A stretch of 47,238 bases of DNA from Nitrospirota bacterium (GTDB lineage Bacteria > Nitrospinota_A > UBA7883 > JACRGQ01), in the NCBI GenBank assembly GCA_024275955.1, contig JAJRYD010000025.1, forward strand, positions 1-47,238, in the 5' to 3' direction. The notes under the pieces were generated by a model. The model searched no databases. It worked only from the letters and a program-made list of their open reading frames with translations, and was not told where the DNA came from. Position 1 is the stretch's first letter. Each line of letters opens with the position of its first letter. Shown here piece by piece: positions 35,146 through 42,234 of the stretch. The translations under genes were made by a program, and so were the position numbers.

Positions 35146-36348
35146 TCAACAGACATTTCTCTCTGTTTTGTACTCCAGCTTTGTGCCGTTTACCGGAAAG
35201 TTAAAACTAAACGTACTGCCGACACCCTCTTCACTATTGACCGAGATTCTGCCTCCATGCAGTTCCACAAATTTCTTTACTATCGCCAAGCCAAGCCCTG
35301 TTCCTTCTCGCTCATCTTTTTTTCTGTCGACTTGATAAAACTCGTCAAACACCTTCCCCAAGCAATCCTCAGGAATGCCTCTTCCTGTGTCTGACGCGGT
35401 AAAAACAAACTCGCCTGCCTCGGACTTACTGCAACGCATCTCGACGAAACCTTCCGTGGTAAACTTGATAGCGTTGCTGACAAGGTTGACGACTATATGC
35501 CTCAGTTTTTCCTTATCCGCTATTATTTCGGTGTATGGAAAATAGAAACTTGATTTAAGGTTGCGCCCGATAAAAAGCGCTTCCAGCTCTTCTCTGTATA
35601 TGGTTTCAAAATATTCTCCAAGATTAAACTTTTCCATATTCAACGAAACGCTTCGCGTTTCTAACTGGGAAAAAGCGAGCAGTTCCGAAACCATGCTGTT
35701 TAGCCTGTTGGCGGCATACTCTATAAACCCGATGAACTTTTCTTTATCAAAATTTTTGCTTTCGCTTGCCGGCTCTCTGAGCGTCTGGGCGGAGCCGATT
35801 ATCACGGAAAGAGGCGTTCTAAAATCGTGCGTTACCATCGAATAAAAATCCAGCTTGCTCTTCCTTGCGTTATCGGCATTTTTAAGAGCGTTCCTCAGGT
35901 CATATTCTATCTGCCAGCTTTGCGTAAGCTTTGCGGCAAGCTGACGGATTTCGTCTGGATAAAACGGTTTTTTAAGAAATATAAGTTTCTCTGAAAGGCC
36001 GTTTTCACGCGCGACATCATCCAGCTTGGAATTAGAGTAGGCTGTTACCAGAACCATTTCTGTCGCGGGGTACCACTTCCTTATCTTCGCGCATGTTTCA
36101 AGGCCGTTCATGCCTCCCGCCATTTTCATATCGCAAAAAACTATGGCAAACGGTTTGCCTTTATCGTCGGCATTTTTGAATGCCTCTATTCCTATCTCTC
36201 CGCTTTCGCACAACACGAGGTCGTACCTTCCTTTCGTCGCTCCGGTCCCCAGAACTCTGGCATAATCGTCTCTTATACTGGGACAGTCATCTATCACAAG
36301 AACCCTGCTGTTAAAACTTCGCTGGCTCTCTTTGCTACTTGCTGTCAC
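35146..36348 (-). CDS. Hybrid receiver-histidine kinase
   Basis: This soluble signalling protein of about 400 residues has an N-terminal receiver domain (phosphoacceptor aspartate in VFCDMKMAGG, residue 73 from this start). A histidine kinase core follows: H-box FYSMVTHDFRTPLSVIIG (His near 174), N-box VVNLVSNAIKF, DTGRGIPEDCLG and GTGLGLAIVKKFVELHGG. There is no membrane segment or other sensor domain, so it is probably driven by phosphorylation of its receiver. The GTG at 36348 is preferred because AAAAAGG lies about ten bases before it; a TTG at 36357 would add three residues. Downstream on the strand come cheW and the heme receptor, separated by 129 and then 5 bases. Confidence 0.92.
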   Translation of the reverse strand: MTASSKESQRSFNSRVLVIDDCPSIRDDYARVLGTGATKGRYDLVLCESGEIGIEAFKNADDKGKPFAIVFCDMKMAGGMNGLETCAKIRKWYPATEMVLVTAYSNSKLDDVARENGLSEKLIFLKKPFYPDEIRQLAAKLTQSWQIEYDLRNALKNADNARKSKLDFYSMVTHDFRTPLSVIIGSAQTLREPASESKNFDKEKFIGFIEYAANRLNSMVSELLAFSQLETRSVSLNMEKFNLGEYFETIYREELEALFIGRNLKSSFYFPYTEIIADKEKLRHIVVNLVSNAIKFTTEGFVEMRCSKSEAGEFVFTASDTGRGIPEDCLGKVFDEFYQVDRKKDEREGTGLGLAIVKKFVELHGGRISVNSEEGVGSTFSFNFPVNGTKLEYKTERNVC

Positions 36349-36555
36349 GAAGCACAAACCTTTTTATGCGTAGCTGTCCGTCTTTCTTTTTTGGAGGCAG
36401 ACAGATAGCCGGCGGATGCCGCTTTTAGTAAAACCTGTTTATGTTTGCAAACCTCTGTCAAAAAAAAACGACGTGATAAATCTTTTTTCTTTTGCTTTTC
36501 CTGCTTTAAGATCATGATTTCTCCACCTACAAGCCCTTTTTGGGGGAAGCTCTAG

Positions 36556-36757: not shown

Positions 36758-37121
36758 CTGGTTTGCTACTAGGAGGAAGCACCTTCTATGCCAAAAGCAA
36801 AAACTCTTTAATCTACTGCGTTTGTGCATATCGGAAAGAGTTCTAAAGCAAGCTCACCGGCTGGAAAAATGCGCACCAGCTTATATATTTAAATTAAAAA
36901 TTGGAAGAAAGTTTATAAAATACGGGAGTATAGCTATCCTCATTCCACATTTTTAGAAGGCGCATCTTTTTTCGCAGATGTGCAAAGTTTTGAGGGTATA
37001 GCTGACTGCATTTAAAATCTTTTGAAACAATCTCAAAAAAAGTGTATTCATATGGCGAGGGAGCCTGACATCTCTTTGCTGAGATTAAAAATATGCTTAA
37101 GGTAATTAAGGAGTTTGAAAT

Positions 37122-37478
37122 ATGTCTGATTTAGATTTGGCCGTTGAGAACAATAACCTCTTTAGGTCGATAGCCGCCCGGAAGGCTATTGAGATGCTTA
37201 CAAACGGTTCTAAAATTCAGGTACTCGATGTCAGAACCGAGGAAGAGTTCAACGGCCCGCTTGGTCATATTGACGGCGCTCTGCTAATACCGCTAAACGA
37301 GCTGGAGAGCAGGCTCAAAGAGCTGGAAAAGTTTAGAGAAAAAAAAATTCTTGTGGTCTGCAGGGCGGGACACAGAAGCAAAACCGCCTGCCGTTTGCTA
37401 TCACAAAACGGGTTTAACGACATCCTTGAAGCTGATACCGGCATGGAAGGTATAAGAGAAGCAGAAAAAGGCTCTTAG
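37122..37478 (+). CDS. Cytoplasmic single-domain rhodanese
   Basis: The 118-residue protein is one rhodanese domain, a sulphur-transfer fold. It has LDVRTEEEFNGPLGHIDGAL and the active-site loop CRAGHRSKTA with the catalytic cysteine near residue 85, followed by LLSQNGFNDILEADTGMEGI. There is no signal peptide, so it acts in the cytoplasm. A second rhodanese with a signal peptide follows 97 bases later. The two share the unusual wording EEF(N/D)GPLGH, so they are paralogues. Donor and acceptor of sulphur are unknown. Confidence 0.9.
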   Translation: MSDLDLAVENNNLFRSIAARKAIEMLTNGSKIQVLDVRTEEEFNGPLGHIDGALLIPLNELESRLKELEKFREKKILVVCRAGHRSKTACRLLSQNGFNDILEADTGMEGIREAEKGS

Positions 37479-37575
37479 GATAAGGATAAGGCTATGACAA
37501 TCGAAATGGAAAATCTGCTCTTTTCGTGTTCTACTGGGAGCGGTAGCTGGTTGACAAGCTACGCTGGAGGTAGAA

Positions 37576-37992
37576 ATGAGAAGTAAGCTTACAGCCTCAA
37601 CCGTTTTCGCGGTGGCGGTACTGCTGGCAGGCATCGGCGCTCTGGAAGCGGCAGACAGGTCGTTCGGGTCTGTATCGCCCCAAAAGGCGATTGAAATATT
37701 ATCTATCGACAAAACCGCAATAGTTCTGGATGTCAGAACTGCTGAGGAGTTCGACGGCCCGCTTGGACACCTTAAAGACGCGAAGCTTATCCCTGTTCAG
37801 GTTCTAGGGCAGAGGATGGACGAGCTGGGCAAATACAAAGATAAAACCATTCTTGTAATATGCCTATCCGGCGGACGGAGTTTAAAGGCGGCCGGTATGC
37901 TGTCCCGGAGAGGGTTTAGCAAGGTGCTGAATGTGGAACAGGGAATGAGGGGAATGAACAATATCCCGAACGCCCCTATCGAACGAAAATAA
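37576..37992 (+). CDS. Periplasmic single-domain rhodanese
   Basis: The 138-residue protein has a signal peptide (MRSKLTASTVFAVAVLLAGI, cleavage near ALEAA) followed by one rhodanese domain. The domain has LDVRTAEEFDGPLGHLKDAK and the active-site loop CLSGGRSLKAA, with the cysteine near residue 96. GGAGG lies six bases before the ATG. It is the exported paralogue of the preceding gene, forming a cytoplasm-periplasm pair. Together they may handle sulphane sulphur across the membrane, which is inference. It converges with the methyltransferase gene 18 bases later. Confidence 0.9.
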   Translation: MRSKLTASTVFAVAVLLAGIGALEAADRSFGSVSPQKAIEILSIDKTAIVLDVRTAEEFDGPLGHLKDAKLIPVQVLGQRMDELGKYKDKTILVICLSGGRSLKAAGMLSRRGFSKVLNVEQGMRGMNNIPNAPIERK

Positions 37993-38010: not shown

Positions 38011-39165
38011 TTATCTGCCCAAAAGCCACCAGTCGAGATATTTTCCTTCTGGAAATTTTTTGATAGTGCTGTGGTCTGCTGGAAGAGAGCCATGCTTCAA
38101 AACTTTTAGCCTTTTGCCATCTTCTACAAAAGCTTTTTCGCAAAGCTCCCTTTTCATAAAACCGGAGCAGTTAGCTATCAACAGTTTGCCTCCTTTCTTT
38201 GAGACAAGCGGCAGAGCGAGATTTACAAGTTTTCTAAAGCCTTTCATCGCCGGCTCCAGCGAAGATTTTCTCCGGCAGATGTTGGGCGGGTCGAGGATTA
38301 CAATGTCGAAACTGCCGGTAGCGTTCGAGAGAAAATCCCATACATCGGCGGTGATCCATTCATCGTTTCCAAGAGAGTAGCGGTTGGCCGTAAGGGTTGA
38401 CAAATACTGCTCCCTGCAACGTTCGTCCTCATCGACAGAAAAGACAGATTTGGCACCGTGATGCCGAGCTATCAATGAAAAAGCGCCGGAATTAGCAAAG
38501 CAGTTTAATACAGACTTTCCCTTCACCATAGATGGAAGAAGCTCTCTTATCATCCGCAAATCGAGAAAAAAACCAGTTTTCTGGCCAGTAACAGGGAAGG
38601 AGCTAAACTTCAGCCCACCCTCATCGAAAATAAGAGGCTCATCAGGGATAGAGCCGATTAACGGATAAACTCGCAAATCGCCTTTCCGGCCGCCTGGAAG
38701 TTTGCAGATATGGCTAGAAATGCCGGTAAGCGTTTCGACTGTTTCCGCGAAAGCCGGCAGAAACTTATCCCAAAACTGGAGATACGGTTGCCATACAGAG
38801 ACAGAGGAATAAATATCGCAGGTAAGCCCGGGGAAGAAATCGCCCTCGCCGTTAAGCAGGCGGTACGCCGAACCATCCTTTGCAAATGCCGACTTTTTTC
38901 TAACCACACTTTTAAGCTTGCCCAGAATATGGGAAAGGCTAAAAGGATCTGGAGTTCTTAAAAGCCTCATCGCAATTATCCCGACCGGCTCGTAAATGGC
39001 GTAAGTTACAAAATGGTTTTCGCCATCGACTACCCTTAGAAGGCTGGACGGAGGAAGAGCATCCATAGCCGAACTAGAGATGCCGCGGTATATCCAAGGA
39101 TGCCCGGAACGCACTATTCCAAGCAGTTTCTTAGAAGCCTGATATCGGTAGGTTTTAAGCTCCAC
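38011..39165 (-). CDS. RlmI-like rRNA large-subunit methyltransferase
   Basis: The 384-residue protein fits the RlmI/YccW family of SAM-dependent 23S rRNA cytosine-5 methyltransferases. The N-terminal PUA-like domain includes SGHPWIYRGISSSAMDALPP, followed by DIYSSVSVWQPY and the middle GQKTGFFLDLRMIRELLPS segment. The methyltransferase domain has VLNCFANSGAFSLIARHHGA, SVDEDERC and the catalytic motif FDIVILDPPNICRRKSSL. RlmI of E. coli uses the cysteine of a downstream motif; here NCSGFMKRELCEKAF may provide it. Base specificity is not certain. It is transcribed away from the sigma-54 region at its 5' side. Confidence 0.9.
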   Translation of the reverse strand: MELKTYRYQASKKLLGIVRSGHPWIYRGISSSAMDALPPSSLLRVVDGENHFVTYAIYEPVGIIAMRLLRTPDPFSLSHILGKLKSVVRKKSAFAKDGSAYRLLNGEGDFFPGLTCDIYSSVSVWQPYLQFWDKFLPAFAETVETLTGISSHICKLPGGRKGDLRVYPLIGSIPDEPLIFDEGGLKFSSFPVTGQKTGFFLDLRMIRELLPSMVKGKSVLNCFANSGAFSLIARHHGAKSVFSVDEDERCREQYLSTLTANRYSLGNDEWITADVWDFLSNATGSFDIVILDPPNICRRKSSLEPAMKGFRKLVNLALPLVSKKGGKLLIANCSGFMKRELCEKAFVEDGKRLKVLKHGSLPADHSTIKKFPEGKYLDWWLLGR

Positions 39166-39255
39166 TAGCTAATCTCCATAGGTAAAACAAAAAAATAATA
39201 ATAGCATCTTAGCATTAAGATACGAAAACACCGCACCGTTTAACAGATTCTGTGG

Positions 39256-39269
39256 CAGTAAGGTTACTG
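39256..39269. promoter_or_regulatory. Candidate activator-binding palindrome upstream of sRNA 1
   Basis: CAGTAAGGTTACTG is a perfect six-base inverted repeat with a two-base spacer, about 52 bases before the first sigma-54-type promoter. The half-site GTTACTGTA recurs at 39479-39487 upstream of the second promoter. This is the distance and symmetry expected for a site bound by a sigma-54 activator. Confidence 0.5.
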
Positions 39270-39318
39270 TATCAATTAGACTCAATATTTATCTTATTGT
39301 TTTTAAATGCATTAACCT

Positions 39319-39335
39319 TTGGCATAAGATATGCA
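39319..39335 (+). promoter_or_regulatory. Sigma-54-type promoter 1
   Basis: TTGGCATAAGATATGCA has GG (39321-39322) and GC (39333-39334) exactly ten bases apart. It matches the TGGCACG-N4-TTGCW consensus at most positions (TGGCAT...ATGCA). Expected start of transcription is about 39346. No gene follows on this strand. Confidence 0.65.
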
Positions 39336-39345
39336 CTTATGGAGG

Positions 39346-39430
39346 GCAACATTAAAGAACTGACCTAAACACCCCCCTAATGCGGGCAGGCTAATTCCCC
39401 ACTTAGTCTGCCCGCAACCCCTAAAATTTA
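39346..39430 (+). ncRNA. Candidate sigma-54-dependent sRNA 1
   Basis: From the predicted start the RNA has a single-stranded ACACCCCCCUAA. A 14-bp helix follows, TGCGGGCAGGCTAA (39381-39394) with TTAGTCTGCCCGCA (39403-39416), one pair being G-U. The loop is UUCCCCAC, and an ACCCC segment follows. There is no U-run, so the 3' end is uncertain. C-rich loops of this kind can pair with G-rich ribosome sites. A nine-codon frame at 39338 begins upstream of the expected start and is not credible. Confidence 0.55.
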
Positions 39431-39499
39431 AAATTCTCATGGTAATATATTTCACCAAACATAATGTTTTAACGTTTTGTTACTGTAGCCATTTCGAAA

Positions 39500-39527
39500 C
39501 ATACAGCCATAAAAGTGCAACTGTATG
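39500..39527. promoter_or_regulatory. Inverted repeat upstream of sRNA 2
   Basis: CATACAG (39500-39506) and CTGTATG (39521-39527) are perfect inverted repeats 14 bases apart, ending 23 bases before the second sigma-54-type promoter's GG. Together with the half-site TTACTG at 39480-39485 it may be an activator site; the ACTGTA core is shared with the first upstream region. Confidence 0.4.
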
Positions 39528-39547
39528 ATTTTTCAGGATGTTATCGT

Positions 39548-39564
39548 TTGGCACGATAGATGCT
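39548..39564 (+). promoter_or_regulatory. Sigma-54-type promoter 2
   Basis: TTGGCACGATAGATGCT contains the full TGGCACG block, GG (39550-39551) and GC (39562-39563) ten bases apart, and ATGCT for the -12 element. It is the best sigma-54 match I found in the window. Expected start of transcription is near 39575. Confidence 0.75.
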
Positions 39565-39574
39565 ACTTTAAATG

Positions 39575-39652
39575 ATTACCTTAAAGCTAGCGTTGATGCT
39601 TGCATATATAGTGGGCAGGTCGGCTCCCCCCGGTCTGCCCACGCCTTTTTCT
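39575..39652 (+). ncRNA. Candidate sigma-54-dependent sRNA 2
   Basis: About 78 bases ending in an intrinsic terminator. The helix GTGGGCAGGTCGG (39611-39623) with CCGGTCTGCCCAC (39630-39642) closes the loop CUCCCC and is followed by GCC and five U. It is a paralogue of the hairpin in sRNA 1: the GGGCAG stem, G-U wobble and UCCCC loop are kept, while four pairs differ at both or one side without loss of pairing. A 36-codon frame at 39572 has no ribosome site. Alternative: a terminator for the convergent ATP-grasp gene, though the U-run is on this strand. Confidence 0.6.
39611..39650 (+). terminator. Intrinsic terminator of sRNA 2
   Basis: A 13-bp G/C-rich hairpin (39611-39642) is followed by GCC and TTTTT (39646-39650). 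Transcription on this strand would stop 12 bases before the end of the convergent ATP-grasp gene. On the other strand the hairpin is followed by TATATATGC, a weak signal, so it may act in both directions. Confidence 0.7.
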
Positions 39653-39661
39653 CCTGAGGTT

Positions 39662-40894
39662 CTAGGAAAAACTTTCTTCTAAAGTTACAACAAGCTGTTT
39701 CAGCTCATCCACACTTTCGGCATATATCGCTACATCCAGCTTTCCGGTCATTCTACTTGCGGAAAAATGAAACGGCAAGTACCCAGAACATAATTTTTCA
39801 CTAAACATCTGCTCCCTGCCTGCTTTGCCAACGAAGCTGTCAAAGGATATGCCGCCCGGAACTTCCACACTTAACGATTGAAAAAATATATCTCTATCTA
39901 GGTTTTTCTCCTTTAGCCGGTTAAAAACCGTAAGGAGCGGTGTGGAGCTATTTTTGCGGGCGTTTATTTCGACTGGATAGACCTCTTCCCCATCCCCGTT
40001 TTTCATCAGATCTATTCCTATAAATCCTCTTGCCCCAAATTCGTGCAGACAGTCGGCCACTTTTCCCGCAATTAATGCAACGTTATCCGGCAAAGTTTCG
40101 CTGGTTCCCCCGACGTTGCCTTTATGCTCCGTGCCGTTTGCTAAAACCTGCCTGCTAAAACCAAAAAGAGAATATCCATTATCGTCAAAAAAATACTGCA
40201 GGTTCCAGCTACCGCCATTTTTAATAAATGGAAAAACAAAGTAACGGGTTATGCGTGAATTGCGGCTTATCTTCCTTTTGACATCTTCTATATCGCTTCT
40301 GCTTTCTATAACAAAAGTCTGTATACCTCCTATCGACTCGTTGCCCCTTACGAACAGTTTTCCTCCGAACTTCTCAAGCAGTTTGCCGGTTTTATCCGCA
40401 AACCTTCCTGAACGAACCTGCACAGATTTGATAGCCGGAATATTTGCATCTTCCGACATCCGCTGAAGAAAATAGAGTTTGTTAAACATGCGGGTAATGT
40501 CCGGGTGCATCGTTGCGTTTACTCCAAGCTTTTGGGCTATATCCCTCTCTTCCTCCAGATGCATGTAAAACGAAACTTCCTTCATGCCGGATACAGCTTC
40601 TTTCAACTGCTTCATTACATTTTCGTTTTCGACTATATCCATGGCAAAGTTGCCTTCGCGCCCGCCGCACTCCACTACCTGCTCAGTACCTATGCCGTTT
40701 TCCAACAGGAAACGTAAATAGCTCTCGTCAGGCCTTTCGGGGAGGGCTATGCAGTCTTCCGGCAGGCATTCGAGCAACGACCGCTCCGCGTAACTTTTTA
40801 AAATTTTTTTAAATTCCGCCGGCCGAAACGGCAGAGGCCGAAAAAGGTCGCGGCCGTTCGGCAGATGTATCGCCGGAATATGTAGCCTACTCAC
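39662..40894 (-). CDS. ATP-grasp ligase of unknown substrate
   Basis: The 410-residue protein has a pre-ATP-grasp N-terminal region of about 110 residues and an ATP-grasp fold. The adenine/phosphate part includes [20 protein letters not shown]. The magnesium site near residues 290-312 reads [20 protein letters not shown] followed by [11 protein letters not shown], with the EIN of carboxylate-amine ligases. The overall look recalls PGM1-type peptide ligases, which add an amino group to a carboxylate, but I would not name the product. It overlaps the activator gene by four bases, being the third gene of tolC-activator-ligase. It converges on the sRNA region. Confidence 0.82.
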
Positions 40895-42234
40895 CTAAAA
40901 TCCTTTTTGTCCAGTCTGTACTGTTTCATTTTTCTGTAAAGTGTTTTTCTGTCGATCCCGCACCTTTTCGCGACGTTTTGCAGAGCGCCACCCTCTAAAG
41001 AGAGAAGTGCGTCCAGATACTCTTTTTCATAATGCGAAAGCACCTCTTCCTTCATCGAAATAAAATCTAGCTCTACAAGCCTGTTCATATCCGGCAGGCT
41101 ACCTTTGCCGTCTATCGCAGGTTTGCCCGCTTTTAAATCGTCTACGGTATCACCTTTGCACTGAACCACCGAACGCTCGACCACATTTTCAAGCTCGCGT
41201 ATGTTTCCGGGCCAGCGGTGCCTTTTGAGGCTTTGCGTTGCCGGAACAGAAAAACCTTTTACTTTTTTATTGTATTTCTCCGCGAACCGCTTTAAGAAAA
41301 TATCGGCAAGGATTTCTATATCCCCGCCTCTCTCTCTGAGTGGCGGCAGGCTGATAGCTATCACGTTTATGCGGTATAAGAGGTCACGCCTAAATGAAGA
41401 GTCAGAAGCCATTCTAAAAATATCTCTGTTAGTGGCCGAGACAAGACGGAAGTCGGTTTTTTTTTCTACCTCACTGCCGACCGGATGAAAGAGGCCGGTT
41501 TCCAGCACTCTTAAAAGCTTAACCTGCAAAGAGCGCGGCATATCTCCCACTTCGTCAAGAAAAAGAGTTCCCCCGTCCGCCGCCTCCAGCTTTCCGGCAT
41601 GCGTATTAACCGCGCCGGTAAACGCTCCGCGCTGGTGGCCAAAAAGCTCCGATTCCAGCAAGCTCTCCGCCAGCGACCCGCAGTTAAGAGCGATAAAAGG
41701 GCCTTTGGCTCTACAGCTTAAACGGTGCAAGGCACGCGCCACTAGCTCCTTCCCTGTTCCTGTCTCGCCCAGTATCAGTACCGAACTCTCTACCTTCGCC
41801 GCTGTCGCTACAATTTCCCTCATATCGTTAATAGCCTTTGAAGAGCCTGCCATCTCCGGCATACCGGCTTCCTTTGCTTTAGTCTCTTTTTCTGCCGCAC
41901 CCGAAACGGTAAGCTCTATACGTTTTATAACCGCCTCCGCGTCATACGGCTCTGTTATACATGCCGCCCCATACTGCGCCAAAGTGGCTCCTACCTCGGC
42001 AAACCTTCCGGCAGGAGCCGACACTATAAGTTTTTTTTCTTTAAAGCAGGCCGGCAGTGGAAAAAGATCGAAAGAGGCTATAAGCAGGCCGCAATTAAAT
42101 TCTTTTTCTCTGGCAGACGCCTCTTCGGCGTAGAAAGCGGCAGAAACATCGTAGCCGGCATTTTTTATAATGTCGCACAGTGAAGAGGCTTTATGAAAAT
42201 TTCTGTCGTATACAAGTACCTTGAGCGCACTCAC
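40891..42234 (-). CDS. Sigma-54 enhancer-binding protein with degenerate receiver
   Basis: The 447-residue NtrC-family activator opens sigma-54 promoters by ATP hydrolysis. The AAA+ domain has Walker A GETGTGKE (156-163), the sigma-54-contacting GAFTGA loop (203-208), Walker B GGTLFLDE (221-228) and the sensor [21 protein letters not shown] Fis-type helix-turn-helix ends the protein ([20 protein letters not shown]). The N-terminal receiver fold is abnormal: the acidic pair reads YDRN, the phosphoacceptor strand reads [12 protein letters not shown], and the conserved lysine of the KP motif is glutamate (ITEPYD, E95). It is probably not controlled by normal phosphorylation. It overlaps tolC and the ATP-grasp gene by four bases each. 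The sigma-54-type promoters at 39319 and 39548 are its nearest candidate targets. Confidence 0.94.

Follow-up and report, generated by a model that had tools for sequence, protein, structure and literature searches.

The most familiar sets of small RNAs under sigma-54 control are those of Vibrio and Pseudomonas. NrsZ of Pseudomonas is a nitrogen-regulated sigma-54 sRNA with stem-loop modules that expose a C/U-rich motif; CrcZ and CrcY have A-rich Hfq motifs, and their length far exceeds the approximately 80 nt of the RNAs treated here. The latter two form an RpoN-dependent sRNA pair in Pseudomonas and Azotobacter (PMC6292655). Vibrio genomes encode several short Qrr sRNAs, every one of which has a separate sigma-54 promoter and distant activator sites (PMC2680268). 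The alpha-r14 sRNAs, among them NfeR1 of Sinorhizobium, keep ultraconserved C-rich anti-Shine-Dalgarno motifs unpaired while their stems vary in sequence, and these seeds silence mRNAs at the ribosome-binding site; for NfeR1, which has three repeated CCUCCUCCC motifs, LsrB is the activator and NtrC the repressor (PMC10746234). The literature searched contained no account of sigma-54 sRNAs in Nitrospirae.

The locus described here lies in a stretch of 47,238 nucleotides of a Nitrospirota bacterium, the whole of which is called the window. Two tandem sRNAs, RNA 1 and RNA 2 (type A), are predicted in it (Table 1), each with the general mark of a sigma-54 sRNA, a -24/-12 promoter immediately ahead of an RNA gene that stands alone. 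As with Qrr, several sigma-54 sRNAs are predicted per genome, with candidate distant activator sites, and one copy may be close to the activator gene. Unlike Qrr, the window RNAs have C-rich seeds and no Rfam match, belong to an unrelated phylum and show no link to quorum sensing; the LuxO model scores 254 bits on the neighbouring activator, against a cut-off of 800, and other activator models score higher. The arrangement as a pair of RpoN-type sRNAs is shared with CrcZ/CrcY, whose A-rich Hfq-binding repeats are absent from both predicted RNAs, as is GGA, which is repeated in hairpin loops of the CsrB/RsmY type. The window RNAs match neither the GlmY/GlmZ family nor any other in Rfam, and they differ from NrsZ also in phylum and activator. 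The conserved, unpaired C-rich motif with varying stems of alpha-r14 is exactly the pattern of type C, a further RNA of the same genome (see below), but the promoters here are of the sigma-54 type, the C-rich motifs are different ones and an Rfam match is absent. The repeated CCUCCUCCC is absent: the window RNAs have CACCCCCC, UUCCCC and CUCCCC, type B has CCUCCUCUCC, and type C has CCUCCCC once. The window RNAs would work like Qrr or alpha-r14 but belong to neither, and they are best regarded as a new RNA family in which control and seed are combined in an unusual way.

Table 1. Features of the tandem RNA locus (positions in the window) and further RNAs of the same genome (G000)
Feature	Location	Strand	Evidence or remarks
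RlmI-like methyltransferase	38011-39165	-	neighbour of the RNA pair
Candidate enhancer GATACGAAAACACCGCA for activator binding, ~100 bp upstream of promoter 1	39219-39235	+	14.2 bits, shuffles 4.2, p 0.02
Direct repeat copy 1, GTTACTGTATCAATT, 15 bp	39263-39277	+	upstream of promoter 1
Sigma-54 promoter 1, TTGGCATAAGATATGCA	39319-39335	+	predicted start 39346; consensus scoring, chance expectation, genome count
RNA 1 (type A), ~80 nt	39346-39425	+	predicted start and fold; kept in G002 and G006
C-rich unpaired linker of RNA 1, CACCCCCCTAA, candidate seed	39370-39380	+	unpaired in fold
Hairpin 1	39381-39416	+	loop TTCCCCAC at 39395-39402; fold, covariation
Direct repeat copy 2, GTTACTGTAGCCATT	39479-39493	+	upstream of promoter 2
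Sigma-54 promoter 2, TTGGCACGATAGATGCT	39548-39564	+	predicted start 39575; consensus scoring, chance expectation, genome count
RNA 2 (type A), ~77 nt	39575-39651	+	predicted start and fold; covariance models R1, R2
Hairpin 2, intrinsic terminator	39611-39642	+	loop CTCCCC at 39624-39629; T5 at 39646-39650
ATP-grasp protein	39662-40894	-	ATP-grasp_3 7e-7; converges on the RNA pair; forms a gene pair with the activator in 11/11 family genomes
Sigma-54 activator (enhancer-binding protein), candidate activator of the pair	40891-42234	-	Sigma54_activat 4e-65; GAFTGA loop, Fis-type HTH
Type C RNA, own copy, ~95 nt	G000:C1:24117-24240 (L097 4118-4240)	+	orthologues L099-L109
Candidate RNA D	G000:C5:41017 (L136)	+	sigma-54-headed hairpin, U7 terminator, 16-bit enhancer match
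Candidate RNA E	G000:C33:84254 (L146)	+	sigma-54-headed hairpin, loop CUCCCCCCUAAUCCC

An earlier, sequence-only reading of this DNA had pointed to two sigma-54 sites in the same direction, 229 bp apart, and this was confirmed. Both sites have GG-N10-GC and match the consensus at 12 of 13 scored positions each; first-order randomisation of the 496-bp gap gives an expectation of 0.0015 such sites on the same strand, against the two seen. The starts predicted from the promoters are the positions that had been proposed, near 39346 and 39575. The strict form TGGCAYN5WTGCW is found at 16 places in the 2.45-Mb genome, and the reversed-pattern control gave 0+1 = 1 match. Judged by gene context, the strict intergenic sites that remain once those of the predicted RNAs of this genome are set aside lie upstream of genes of flagellar type, of a pilin-like gene and of one for a secreted protein. 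The 15-bp direct repeat before the two promoters has just these two copies and may be of chance origin. A third strong sigma-54-like site, TTGGCATAGAAGGTGCT (12/13), was seen at 36794 on the minus strand, upstream of a response regulator/histidine kinase gene (35146-36357), where a match to the enhancer motif described below is absent.

Site 1 leads to a hairpin of -25 kcal/mol (z -6.5 versus shuffles) and site 2 to one of -22.6 kcal/mol (z -4.0) with U5 downstream, and the next gene is convergent; this order of hairpin, hairpin with U-run and convergent gene is the one first described. No U-run follows hairpin 1, where the sequence is ACCCCUAAAAUUU; the 3' end of RNA 1 is therefore uncertain, and RNA 1 may terminate poorly or read through into RNA 2. 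The C-rich linker of RNA 1 is lost in RNA 2, and part of it, CCCCCCTAAT, is found again in the loop of candidate RNA E. The two copies have 50% identity to each other and are equally distant from the copies of other genera, which suggests an old, diverged tandem. Coding RNAs were considered and rejected, as the leader ORFs (MEGNIKELT at RNA 1 and a 36-codon ORF at RNA 2, with its ATG upstream of the predicted RNA 2 start) are not conserved in a second genus of the family.

The lineage is represented in the comparison by draft genomes only, among them a second (G002) and a third genus (G006) of the same bacterial family. A DNA similarity search with the whole gap in 40 genomes matched only the own genome, and relatives of type A were reached by promoter-guided scans and covariance models. 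When the loci of ATP-grasp orthologues were scanned for sigma-54 sites, one clear relative was found, in G002. It reads TTTGGCATGATTCATGCT, then ACCUCCCC, the hairpin GUGUGGGCAGAUUCCCCCUUCUGCCCACAC and then CCCCCUUUUU, and is syntenic, between the RlmI-like gene and the activator/ATP-grasp operon, which there has an extra UbiA-like gene (named from sequence). A fourth member was detected in G006 (E 0.007) with covariance model R1, built on three sequences; it is convergent with a glnD-like gene and does not lie beside the activator/ATP-grasp operon. The promoter-hairpin unit, which the sequence-only reading had suggested looking for in related genomes, thus occurs in both genera. Four pairs of the stem are altered on both sides among the four sequences, with a covariation of 0.397 versus 0.224 in shuffles (0/500) and at most 0.115 in slid controls, figures to be read with the bias towards structure of an alignment fitted to the model. 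As the downstream gene is convergent in all three genomes, type A units have no role as 5' UTRs. Rfam gave no match at gathering, chance matches to other families appearing only at E 5. The occurrence in two other genera, the paired stem changes, the syntenic position in G002, the Rfam result and the further sigma-54-headed C-rich RNAs of the same genome support the idea of an undescribed sigma-54 sRNA pair comparable to Qrr or CrcZ. Several other candidates were rejected as homologues: the hairpin-only pattern GGGCAG..CTGCCC gave repeat or coding matches in other families, without sigma-54 sites; L044 (G003:C7) is antisense at the start of a mobile-element gene and has no sigma-54 site; G008:C34 has no C-rich loop and lies in or at coding sequence.

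Types B and C were found by pattern and model searches for a sigma-54 site followed by a C-rich hairpin. Type B, in which a linker such as UUACCUCUCUCCGGUUAG joins a 5' stem-loop to a terminator, is present in 10 of the 11 family genomes; the copy of the own genome at G000:C4:18200 (+) scores 37.6 bits and that of G002 25.5 bits, lower than the others. The own copy is convergent with, and partly overlaps the end of, a gene resembling type II secretion gspK, and type B of G003 is likewise convergent with a gspK-like gene. G003 has a second type B copy (G003:C392:2872-2977, L112) with an RNA identical to that of genus g6, which may reflect contamination of this draft genome.

Type C is present in all 11 family genomes. 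Its 28-nt core, UUAGAUCACCCUCUAACCUCCCCUUAGA, is identical in nine of them, while the remaining two show one and three mismatches respectively; it is absent from 13 other genomes of the phylum (up to three mismatches) and has no match in viral contigs. A sigma-54 site scoring 10-13 of 13 lies upstream in every family genome. In the outer stems, 13 pairs are altered on both sides versus 6.8 in shuffles, and the covariation is 0.307 versus 0.187. UCUAA could pair with either flanking UUAGA, which would give two exclusive hairpins with the loops UCACCC or CCUCCCC and thus a possible switch. Model R3, trained on type B alone, also detects types A and C; a shared promoter and layout may be the reason, and common descent is not proved by this alone. 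Candidate E and the RNA 1 linker have CCCCCCUAAU in common, and C-rich runs are exposed in every member save candidate D. A pattern of a sigma-54 site plus a U-run, applied across the phylum, gave mostly ordinary leaders and coding DNA and was set aside. The window pair is part of a family-wide set of predicted sigma-54-headed C-rich RNAs. Such a set is undescribed in this uncultured family, and it, like the C-rich seeds, goes beyond what the sequence-only reading had observed.

That reading had also placed a dedicated activator beside the pair. A sigma-54 activator is indeed encoded close by, but not adjacent, the ATP-grasp gene lying in between; a TolC-like protein is also encoded on the minus strand in the same neighbourhood. 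By alignment, the receiver-like N-terminus of the activator is degenerate, without the usual lysine and one acidic residue, so that phosphorylation in the usual manner may not take place. The protein scores below the cut-off of every named NCBIfam family. Beyond the family, at least three genomes of the class also have the activator/ATP-grasp gene pair; in three such genomes the type C core is absent. Regions upstream of 26 promoters were searched for motifs. Type C gave GCGGTAAAAACGTTACA, and types A and C jointly a dyad close to GATACG-AAAA-CGTATC, with log-likelihoods of 92-109 versus 46-57 in shuffles. A matrix made from the type C sites of other genomes, with the own genome left out, scored candidate D (16.1 bits) and promoter 1 best among the own sigma-54 promoters, and type C at 10.8 bits; a chance intragenic site reached 11.0, flgB 9.8 and promoter 2 only 9.3 bits. 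The upstream regions of types B and E did not score above shuffles, and type B has a separate upstream motif, TTGTATACAAAAGTATC. A putative activator common to RNA 1, C and D is thus moderately supported by the motif; one activator common to all RNA types is not supported.

The RNAs could also be real and sigma-54-dependent but driven by another activator, a flagellar one for example, the neighbourhood of the 40891-42234 gene being incidental. The motif match of flgB, the flagellar-type and pilin-like genes behind the remaining strict intergenic sites, and the distance of types B, C and the G006 type A copy from the activator/ATP-grasp operon fit this explanation. We consider it rather unlikely, as type A is syntenic with the operon in two genera, the activator is found in all 11 genomes with type C, and its recognition helix is nearly invariant across the family.

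The promoters, hairpins, conservation, covariation and family-wide set can be read in the sequence itself; transcription of the window RNAs, their activator, their pairing mechanism and their targets are inferred. The best reading of the whole, with a probability of roughly 0.6, is that of trans-acting sRNAs, made by sigma-54 RNA polymerase, whose C-rich anti-Shine-Dalgarno-like seeds would silence mRNAs. The activator, most likely the 40891-42234 product, would bind the upstream sites and open both promoters in response to some signal, and sigma-54 RNA polymerase would transcribe both short RNAs, each ending in a GC-rich hairpin. The exposed C-runs (loops UUCCCC and CUCCCC, plus the linker CACCCCCCUAA in RNA 1) would pair with ribosome-binding regions that are rich in G and thereby stop translation of the target mRNAs. 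Type A at this locus, together with types B and C at other loci of the genome, could form a circuit resembling a multi-RNA switch.

Target preference was calculated for 291 genes, drawn from the window and from 20 further stretches of 20 kb each (447-kb sample), with six shuffled seeds for each seed. The linker and the loop of RNA 1 each prefer ribosome-binding regions above all six shuffled seeds; the seeds of RNA 2 and type C are not above theirs, and type B is marginal. The best target match of the RNA 1 linker (-27.8 kcal/mol) was discarded, as by frame reading it lies inside a transporter coding sequence. Trans-acting pairing is the most likely mechanism; its main rival is that the RNAs act as decoys similar to CrcZ or CsrB, their C-rich runs and hairpins sequestering an RNA-binding protein instead of pairing with mRNA. 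A titrating role would agree with the several C-rich runs in each RNA and the several parallel RNAs in each genome, and the type C core is conserved along 28 nt, longer than a short seed requires. Both window RNAs lack, however, the GGA motif of CsrA and the A-rich repeats of Hfq, and the sequence outside the C-runs differs greatly between types, which makes decoys improbable here. Neither Hfq nor CsrA was found in the approximately one fifth of the genome searched.

That the hairpins are mere terminators of the flanking genes, with the sigma-54 sites due to chance or to readthrough antisense to the ATP-grasp gene, is very improbable: hairpin 2, only 20 bp away from the convergent stop codon, might also shield the 3' end of the ATP-grasp gene, and hairpin 1 has no U-run, but promoter, leader and hairpin are kept together even at the quite different G006 location, two sites of such quality are hardly expected by chance, and the minus strand has no T-run after hairpin 2.

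A wider proposal can be put forward tentatively, with more doubt than confidence. Sigma-54 of this family might be largely RNA-making, with about six of about ten credible strict promoters driving sRNAs, mostly C-rich and anti-Shine-Dalgarno-like. One ATP-grasp-linked activator might co-activate most of them, in an independently evolved Qrr-like switch centred on type C. The sequence evidence points to a separately evolved sigma-54 sRNA set, absent from Rfam, in an uncultured lineage, one member being kept in every genome of the family. Two known ideas are combined in it: the control of several parallel sRNAs by sigma-54 and an activator, and C-rich anti-Shine-Dalgarno seeds that are ultraconserved. 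For tests in a laboratory host there are now seeds, a concrete activator and a candidate enhancer motif. Two tandem rhodanese-domain genes lie at 37122-37992 (+) of the window, and a rhodanese-like gene is also found near the syntenic locus of G002.
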